Shown one piece after another: positions 35,200 to 37,355 of a DNA stretch of 64,000 nucleotides (within the stretch, counting starts at the first letter, position 1; each line of letters begins with the position of its first letter). The position numbers were made by a program, and so were the translations under genes. Under the pieces are notes generated by a model. The model was not told the origin of the DNA and ran no database searches. It saw only the letters and a program-made list of their open reading frames with translations. Source of the stretch: Paenibacillus protaetiae (lineage in GTDB: Bacteria > Bacillota > Bacilli > Paenibacillales > Paenibacillaceae); contig NZ_CP035492.1 in assembly GCF_004135365.1 (NCBI RefSeq), positions 558,001 through 622,000 on the forward strand. The letters run 5' to 3'.

Positions 35200-35637
35200 A
35201 TGTTCATGGGCGAATATCAGCATAGCATTGATGATAAAGGCCGCATCATTATACCGTCCAAATTCCGCGAGGAGCTTGGCGCTTCTTTTATTGCCACTAG
35301 AGGTCTTGATAACTGTTTATTTGTTTATCCGGCGAGTGAATGGGCAGTGCTGGAGCAAAAGCTGAAATCATTGCCGCTCATGAAATCGGATGCCCGCGCG
35401 TTTACCCGCTTTTTCTTCTCGGGTGCAACCGAATGCGAGCTCGATAAACAGGGAAGGGTAAATATACCTGGACATTTGAGAGAATATGCAAAGCTTGATA
35501 AGGACTGTATGGTGCTGGGCGTATCCGGCCGTGTGGAAATTTGGAGCAAAGAAACATGGAGCAGTTACTACGAACAGTCCGAGCAAGCCTTTAACGAAAT
35601 CGCAGAAAAACTGGTTGATTTCGATTTTAACTTCTAA
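35200..35637 (+). CDS. mraZ: Transcriptional regulator MraZ
   Basis: 145-aa AbrB/SpoVT-fold protein with two DXXXR-type halves ([17 protein letters not shown] and [20 protein letters not shown]). First gene of the division and cell wall cluster, whose promoter it controls. ATG 35200 (MFMGEYQH) was chosen as the family start with GGAAGGG upstream; the longer frame from 35167 runs through the operator repeats. Confidence 0.96.
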
Positions 35638-35674
35638 GCGAATGGCTGACAGAAAGAACGGGAGGCAATATAAC

Positions 35675-36625
35675 GTGTTTCAGCATATTACAGTGCTGCT
35701 GGAGGAAGCAGTTGAAGGTCTGGCAATAAAGCCGGACGGTATCTACGTCGATTGTACGCTTGGGGGAGCGGGACATAGTGAAAGGATCGCATCCAAGCTT
35801 GGCGATGGAGGACGGCTCATTGCTTTCGATCAGGACGATCTGGCGCTGGACAATGCGCGTGTGCGGCTGGCTCCCTATATGGATAAAGTCACATTAGTAA
35901 AAAGCAATTTTCGTTATCTCGAAGATGAGTTGAAAGGTTTGGGCGTTCCGATGAAAGACGGTTTGCCGCAAGTCGACGGCATACTGTTTGACCTTGGCGT
36001 ATCCAGCCCGCAGCTGGATGAAGCCGATCGCGGCTTTAGCTACAACCACGATGCGCCGCTGGATATGCGGATGGACCGCGATACCGATTTGACAGCGGCA
36101 GAAATCGTCAACGAATGGGAAGAGCGGGAAATTTCCCGCATTTTATCGGTATACGGGGAAGAGAAGTTTTCCCGGCAGATCGCCCGAAACATCGTGCAGG
36201 CGCGCGCTAAAGCGCCGATTGAAACAACAGGAGAACTGGTCGAGCTGATCAAAACTGCGATACCGGCAGCTGCAAGACGGACAGGCCCGCATCCGGCGAA
36301 ACGTTCGTTCCAAGCGCTCCGTATCGCGGTTAACGATGAACTTGGCGCAGAAGAAGATGCGCTGGAGCAGACGGTAAGATGCCTGGCCCCGGGCGGCAGA
36401 GCATCCGTCATTACATTTCATTCGCTGGAAGACCGCATTTGCAAGCAGGCATTTGCCAAGTACATTGAAAAATGCACATGCCCGCCTGATTTTCCGATGT
36501 GCGTCTGCGGTGCCAAAGGAACGCTTAAGCTGGTAAACCGCAAGCCGATTGTGCCAAGCGAGCAGGAATTGGAAATGAACCCGCGCGCGCGTTCCGCCAA
36601 GCTGCGCGTAGCGGAGAAACTATAA
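35675..36625 (+). CDS. rsmH: 16S rRNA (cytosine1402-N4)-methyltransferase RsmH
   Basis: SAM-dependent methyltransferase (316 aa) that modifies C1402 in the ribosomal decoding centre; also called MraW. SAM motif [17 protein letters not shown]; conserved [11 protein letters not shown] and [24 protein letters not shown] near the C-terminus. GTG 35675 ([11 protein letters not shown]) was chosen: GGGAGG lies ten bases upstream and the family begins here. Upstream in-frame ATG 35642 has no SD. A tandem repeat array follows. Confidence 0.95.
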
Positions 36626-36635
36626 CGGAGCGGGC

Positions 36636-36924
36636 AAATTGCTTGCGAAGCAGGCTTTTGCCCCGTACCTAATCCTTTAACGGATTAGGTATTACTTACA
36701 AAACCAAGCGAAATGCTTACGAAGCAGGCTTTTGTTCGTACCTAATCCTTTAACGGATTAGGTATTACTTACAAAACCAAGCAAAATGCTTACGAAGCAG
36801 GCTTTTGTTCGTACCTAATCCTTTAACGGATTAGGTATTACTTACAAAACCAAGCGAAATGCTTACGAAGCAGGCTTTTGTTCGTACCTAATCCTTTAAC
36901 GGATTAGGTATTACTTACAAAACC
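36636..36924 (+). repeat. Four tandem 73-bp repeats with internal hairpins between rsmH and ftsL
   Basis: The palindrome TACCTAATCC-N6-GGATTAGGTA recurs with the CCTAATCC element at 36668, 36741, 36814 and 36887, an exact 73-bp period. Copies 2-4 differ at about one base; copy 1 is diverged (36636-36710) and its own flanks GGGCAAA/TTTTGCCC can pair. Each unit therefore holds a perfect 10-bp stem with a six-base loop. The array ends 20 bases before the ftsL start, with the ftsL SD just after it. It accounts for almost the whole 319-base gap. No protein coding is supported. Confidence 0.95.
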
Positions 36925-36944
36925 TTAAGGAGGGTTATTAAACG

Positions 36945-37355
36945 ATGGCTTATACAACAAACGGGAATTTGGCGATGCAGCCGAAGAAGAAGCCGGAGCA
37001 GCAGCCGGTCTACCGTGAAACCAAAAAGATTGTTGTCAAAAAGAATCCGCTTCCGACACGTGAGAAGCTGCTTTGGCTGTTCACGATTGTCGTGCTTGTT
37101 GTTGTAGCGGGGACTATTATTTTTCGTTACGCTCAAATCTATAATACGAATCTCGAAATCAAGCAATTAAAAAATGAGTATAATGCAGTTAATTTAGATA
37201 TTAAAGAAATGCAAAAGCAAGTAGAGTCGCTTAGCGATCCGGACCGGATTACTGCTATTGCGAAATCGCAAGGAATGATCAGCTCGATGGACAGCGAGAT
37301 TACAGTCGATCCGGATAAAGGCGGGGCTTCAGCAGCCGCGACGGGCAGCAGGTGA
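36945..37355 (+). CDS. ftsL: Cell division protein FtsL
   Basis: 136-aa bitopic membrane protein of the FtsL-DivIC-DivIB complex at the septum. Basic cytoplasmic tail (1-44), one helix (about 45-64), then an extracellular leucine-zipper-like coiled coil (NTNLEIKQLKNEYNAVNLDI) and a short Ala/Gly tail. SD AAGGAGGG. The 3' end overlaps pbpB (GTGA). Confidence 0.92.
   Translation: MAYTTNGNLAMQPKKKPEQQPVYRETKKIVVKKNPLPTREKLLWLFTIVVLVVVAGTIIFRYAQIYNTNLEIKQLKNEYNAVNLDIKEMQKQVESLSDPDRITAIAKSQGMISSMDSEITVDPDKGGASAAATGSR

Follow-up and report, generated by a model that had tools for sequence, protein, structure and literature searches.

The rsmH–ftsL Gap

The window (the whole 64-kb stretch of Paenibacillus protaetiae DNA analysed here) contains the genes rsmH (mraW; 35486..36625, + strand; PF01795, MraW/RsmH, E-value 7.5e-127) and ftsL (36945..37355, + strand; Pfam DivIC/FtsL-like, with an ATG at 36945), separated by a gap of 319 bases between the rsmH stop (36625) and the ftsL start codon; the rsmH coordinates are those of the open reading frame as listed, and its real start codon is probably internal. 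Repeat finding and a comparison of copies place a tandem array of 3.9 units of 73 bp in this gap (36639..36924, + strand). Tandem Repeats Finder reported it as the single 73-bp array of the window (36640–36924, 3.9 copies, 97% matches) with a score of 533, the runner-up array in the window scoring 72. Units 2, 3 and 4 contain the 12-base core ATGCTTACGAAG (36713..36724, 36786..36797 and 36859..36870, + strand, found by core search), and unit 1 has a degenerate core, TTGCTTGCGAAG, with two mismatches (36639..36650, + strand). Copies 2 and 3 differ in 1 of 73 bases, and copy 4, which is 66 bases long, matches both throughout that length; the divergent copy is copy 1, where, besides the degenerate core, GCCCC replaces GTTC and there is one additional base.

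Every copy contains the hairpin TACCTAATCC-TTTAAC-GGATTAGGTA, with a stem of 10 bp and a loop of six bases (36666..36691, 36739..36764, 36812..36837 and 36885..36910 in units 1 to 4, + strand), and it can be enclosed by an outer stem of the same unit, GGCTTTTGT / ACAAAACC. The last hairpin adjoins the Shine–Dalgarno sequence (SD) of ftsL, AAGGAGG (36927..36933, + strand), 2 nt past the array end. The preliminary description had listed four 73-bp repeats with perfect hairpins in this gap, copies 2–4 being nearly identical; both statements are confirmed, with one differing base among the latter copies, and the hairpins do lie where the ftsL mRNA leader would be, immediately 5' of its SD.

Folded as RNA, the array region has a z-score of −9.95 relative to dinucleotide shuffles. 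A scan of the array in the window revealed no promoter-like site and 0 terminator-like sites, the G+C-rich stem followed by a T run that characterises an intrinsic terminator or attenuator being absent. A simple assembly artefact is unlikely, since the host assembly consists of one contig of 4.23 Mb, copies 1 and 2 can be told apart by their bases and arrays of this kind are present in many other genomes.

The Core in the Host Genome

A search of the 4.23-Mb genome found the hairpin sequence of the ftsL array at that place only, which first suggested a private repeat of the ftsL gap; this was overturned by a search with the core, the first 12 bases of the unit, which the preliminary description had not mentioned. 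The search for the unit across the genome was thus negative for the hairpin and positive for the core. All 13 exact copies of the latter sit in four tandem arrays, each 5' of a same-strand gene: before a cation-efflux (cation exporter) gene after secF (42-bp period, 5 copies), before uvrA after uvrB (42-bp period, 3.8 copies), before an M20 amidohydrolase gene (67-bp period, 4.2 copies) and before ftsL (73-bp period). There were 0 exact cores on the opposite strand of the host genome, and the reversed control gave one chance match per strand. An rRNA partner for the core was sought in the first 40 kb of the genome, which contain no rRNA gene. A one-mismatch core scan of the same genome added a variant array before msrAB, with ATGCTTGCGAAG; it has one terminator-like site, the number expected from shuffles. 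In the secF, uvrA, amidohydrolase, msrAB and ftsL arrays the last unit adjoins the SD, and each of the host's arrays has its own hairpin.

Two earlier suggestions are affected. A role specific to ftsL and the septal PBP is not supported, the module being found also before at least four other host genes and, in other genomes, before functionally diverse genes. That the palindrome serves as a sequence-specific protein site is unlikely, its sequence at ftsL occurring at one place only and varying between arrays. A small coding repeat (ATG CTT ACG AAG, MLTK) was considered and rejected: the periods, 73, 67, 49, 41 and 40 among them, break the frame, the next codon is often, not always, a stop, and the ATG has no preceding SD.

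Structure and Covariation of the Unit

In its general layout, the unit consists of a linker RGY-NN and the core AUGCUUACGAAG, which a spacer of two bases separates from an AU-rich hairpin whose G-C pairs are close to the loop; a short tail rich in U then leads to the SD and the start codon. The ftsL-array unit is a long variant, its hairpin lying 15 nt past the core and nested in the outer stem. In an alignment of 36 equal-length units, 97.9% of stem cells are paired, with two-sided changes in seven of eight pairs, and the covariation score of the hairpin is 0.409, compared with 0.105 for shuffled alignments and a maximum of 0.116 for slid ones; the exact core search makes every core column of these alignments invariant. 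RNAalifold recovers the main hairpin unaided and adds a second, 3-bp helix between linker R-G-Y and core GCU. Over 150 arrays, the linker bases are A84/G14, G98 and C53/T33 percent, G-U wobbles being tolerated there. Compensatory change supports the module hairpin, as in a covarying structured leader.

The main stem itself shows no wobble excess, G-U (35) and A-C (40) mismatches being equally rare, although an excess of G-U would be expected of an RNA helix that had long been under selection; the stem may thus be of recent origin, homogenised among copies or maintained without mismatches by a process at the DNA level. The loop-adjacent pair is C-G in 311 of 373 units, and the outer pairs are mostly T-A. 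A genome-specific stem sequence was considered and dropped, its significance being due to one genome (p about 0.19 without that genome).

Position Relative to Neighbouring Genes

Position was assessed in a sample of 150 distinct arrays, with gene calls made by simple choices of open reading frame, so that the percentages are approximate. An SD follows the array in 145 of the 150, in 123 of these 20–28 nt past the last core, and a start codon stands at the right distance in 141. The downstream gene lies on the same strand in 90 of the 96 arrays with both neighbours called (about 94%), and the upstream gene in about four fifths of callable arrays against a baseline of 70%; operon gaps are therefore preferred only mildly, and about 16 of the 96 arrays have a divergent gene on their 5' side and hence no operon in which processing could take place. 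Single cores show the same hairpin–SD layout in 18 or 19 of 20 sampled in one genome (G089), and one of them lies in coding sequence.

Conservation and Copy-Number Turnover between atpA and atpG

The atpA–atpG gap was picked by gene and not by core, which avoids the circularity of an exact core search. In 33 of these orthologous gaps, from five genera, the core is kept 46–53 nt before the atpG start, in 21 exactly and in nine more with one change. By genus, it was found in 11 of 11 gaps in g7, 10 of 10 in g13, 8 of 10 in g18, 1 of 1 in g15 and 3 of 6 in g8, and AtpG identity goes down to about 72–76% across the genomes keeping it. The hairpins differ in the atpA–atpG gaps of the host genome and of the other genera checked. 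Gaps without the module (L312, L326, L345, L314, L316 and others) have another recurrent hairpin, often ACCAGGC...GCAACAAAGGCGGGTGA, and some hairpin seems always to precede atpG.

Within genus g7 the same gap contains from one to four cores, with changes of whole units, between genomes in which AtpG is 94–99% identical and the flanks are alignable; the unit–SD junction is always intact despite these changes. The recent or ongoing change in copy number that had been suspected for the ftsL array is thus borne out for this kind of array, as gain or loss of whole units between close relatives. Gaps that lack the module have the native atpG SD as well, which therefore did not come with the element.

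Over species, the recurring downstream genes include atpG (14 times), LiaF-like and PTS EIIC genes (five times each) and the cation-efflux gene after secF (four times, the host genome included). Recurrence of the same downstream gene amounts to 131 pairs, against about two expected for random placement over 5000 genes. Shared descent contributes to this recurrence; retention over genera still argues for a function.

Distribution

Tandem core pairs, defined by 20–50 nt separating the two cores, are present in 60 of 199 sampled Paenibacillaceae genomes and in 13 of 19 genera, and the reversed core pattern was found in tandem in 0 of 199 genomes of the same family. Public genomes yielded at least 120 matching stretches, nearly all labelled Paenibacillus or Paenibacillaceae; the exceptions among the matches listed are a MAG that seems to have been mis-binned and two entries labelled 'Bacillus sp.'. 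When the whole class was scanned for a core with an SD, 29 of 399 genomes were positive, 28 of which are Paenibacillaceae, and a search of viral contigs found no module. The number of exact cores per genome ranges from 84–144 (G146, G159, G136, G089 and G181) to about 1 (G001 and G007). A covariance model of core, hairpin and SD found 116–146 places per module-rich genome among at most 150 scored, 23 places in the host genome and 1–3 weak ones in two outgroups. The module is thus nearly restricted to one family, Paenibacillaceae, where it stands before many genes, singly or in tandem.

A very long array (L251; G146 C1:3003800-3008200) has at least 20 exact 49-nt units among degenerate ones, the latter with small core deletions (ATGCTTAGAAG, ATGCTTGAAG); it stands before one gene and has TATAAT just 5' of it. 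A single-copy module, ATGCTTACGAAG-AGGGTTTTGC..., is present in nearly all sampled genomes of genus g7 (L264–L279).

A MITE-like repeat of about 280 bp, with inverted ends near AAGAGGTTGTTYAAAAAGTCC / GGACTTTTTGAACAACC, occurs in G128, G066 and gut MAGs (loci L007:1215-1495, L213:1440-1760, L227:1400-1650, L371, L126, L145, L146 and L180) and contains one or two core–hairpin units and no SD. Two rsmH–ftsL gaps (L003, L009) contain short sequences resembling joined inverted ends of this repeat (GTGTTCAAAAAAAGTC...GGAACAACC; AGGTTGTTTGAACAACC), such as the loss of a copy might leave. The corresponding gap in genus g3 (L022, L023) has, before ftsL, a core-less hairpin, CATCCG-AYAA-CGGATG, whose tail is rich in A+T and which superficially resembles the GGATTAGG hairpin of the host.

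Rfam gave no credible match for the ftsL array or for 18 other loci, the weak miRNA matches being attributable to chance, and the open-access literature yielded no paper describing a core–hairpin module and no Paenibacillus 5'-end map; the core–hairpin–SD leader module is new to Rfam and to that literature as searched. Judged from its sequence, the ftsL array is one example of this family-wide leader module, a 12-letter core followed by a hairpin and then the SD, the copy number of which differs between close species.

Possible Function of the Module

The reading that we prefer, and to which we would give slightly less than an even chance, is that the array serves the downstream gene as a post-transcriptional leader module, i.e., an mRNA processing and stabilising site where an RNase Y cut would be followed by a protective hairpin. 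In the gapR/cggR and glnR leaders of S. aureus and B. subtilis, RNase Y cleaves after a G that lies 2–3 nt 5' of an AU-rich hairpin whose G-C pairs are close to the loop (PMC11321564); for cggR of B. subtilis, the hairpin behind the RNase Y cut mainly stabilises the downstream product (PMC11780869). The proposal draws on the position, strand, covariation, retention at atpA–atpG and recurrence of downstream genes described above, on the lack of promoter-like and terminator-like sites in the ftsL array and on the resemblance of the module to these sites and to the stabilising cggR hairpin: the core ends in GAAG, the stem starts 2 nt on, and the hairpin is AU-rich with G-C near the loop. The unit would act both in 5' leaders and between operon genes. 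The cut would be made by an endonuclease, most obviously RNase Y, in the unpaired end of the core after a G, 2–5 nt 5' of the hairpin; this hairpin would cap the fresh 5' end against a 5' exonuclease and leave the SD free, and the downstream gene would thereby get its own mRNA level; duplication or loss of whole units would make tandem copies that present several equivalent sites, and copy number could tune the effect. Sequence comparison, on which all statements about RNA are based here, shows the module itself, its placement and orientation, the covarying arms, its retention in orthologous gaps and the turnover of copies; for the array in the window, we infer its transcription, its cleavage, the enzyme and the effect on ftsL. 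Both the units without an SD in the MITE-like repeat and the arrays after divergent genes count against the processing model, as does the lack of wobble excess in the main stem.

RNase Y requires a weak motif only, so it leaves the twelve fixed bases of the core unexplained; this invariance, next to freely varying stems, would be better explained by a dedicated trans-acting factor of the family (an RNA-binding protein, a sequence-specific endoribonuclease of the EndoA/MazF kind or a small RNA) that binds the core. The modules would then form a post-transcriptional regulon, in which the hairpin would only present the core or keep the SD open. The wide variation in core counts (84–144 versus about 1 per genome) is as expected of a factor gained and lost, and single cores share the layout of arrays; yet the factor is hypothetical, with candidate classes only, and its target genes have no obvious common function, and we regard this explanation as unlikely. 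A perfectly paired small RNA, in particular, was set aside as unlikely, since the host genome has no exact complement of the core (0 reverse matches). A Paenibacillaceae-specific system of post-transcriptional control, with a dedicated factor that binds or cuts RNA and reads AUGCUUACGAAG in the leaders of tens to more than 100 genes per genome, and with tandem copy number as a fast-evolving expression dial for single operon genes, appears possible, if on the improbable side.

It is distinctly improbable that the units belong to, or descend from, a MITE or REP-like mobile element with insertion sites directly 5' of SDs, the arrays being neutral or nearly so. The 280-bp repeat with inverted ends that carries one or two units, one copy of which lies in the rsmH–ftsL gap of G128, would agree with such an origin, as would the patchy presence of the module across the family and the stems without wobble excess; moreover, the host array was gained, since the rsmH–ftsL gaps of most relatives are just 15–60 nt long. 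Units may travel inside the 280-bp repeat, and this gap may be a recurrent insertion site. However, an inverted-end-like motif lies within 300 nt of only 4 of the 150 arrays, terminal inverted repeats being a property of the separate 280-bp repeat; the module is kept at atpA–atpG over five genera, its distance to the SD is fixed, the atpG SD is native and found in module-free gaps too, and the viral contigs searched do not contain the module. The almost perfectly complementary arms and, again, the absence of wobble excess could also be read at the DNA level, with the hairpins acting as palindromes in a site for chromosome or transcription proteins or in a transcription attenuator. Strict orientation to the downstream gene and the fixed SD distance oppose this, the ftsL array has no terminator-like site and the U-tails are weak, and the G·U changes tolerated in the linker helix fit RNA and not a DNA-level element, all of which makes it very unlikely.

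If the module works as proposed for the preferred cut-and-protect mechanism, one bacterial family would use a repeated unit to control many genes, atpG, pfkA, uvrA and ftsL among them, and the copy number of a controlling module would vary within a genus. The arrays would then offer a natural countable series, from 1 to more than 20 units, in which to study the influence of leader hairpins on mRNA level inside operons, and the core would be a defined 12-base bait for finding a core-reading factor. The module sequences are also a ready set for a new RNA family.

Comparison with Known Systems

Enterobacterial REP/BIME elements have a palindrome sequence common to the copies and are found mostly after genes, in both orientations. 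The module resembles them in consisting of short palindromic units, single or arrayed, intergenic and many per genome, but its palindrome varies, the ftsL-array hairpin being unique in the genome and stems differing between arrays, whereas the core is fixed and the unit is oriented to, and adjoins, the SD of the next gene. The likeness to bacterial MITEs lies in the inverted-end repeat of about 280 bp that holds one or two units in some Paenibacillus genomes; nearly all arrays, in contrast, have no inverted ends. The hairpins that stabilise Bacillus mRNAs such as aprE from the 5' side are single and gene-specific and have no common core; like the module, they are located near the 5' end, not far from the SD, and they differ from it in that the module has a shared core. 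The RNase Y sites of cggR-gapA (gapR-gapA) and glnR-glnA share with the module the operon gap, an unpaired G 2–3 nt before an AU-rich hairpin and the position of this hairpin 5' of the next gene. Those sites are single, with a weak consensus, and occur in few operons, while the module has a fixed 12-base core, forms tandem arrays before many genes, also in 5' leaders, and belongs to one family, its cleavage being predicted.
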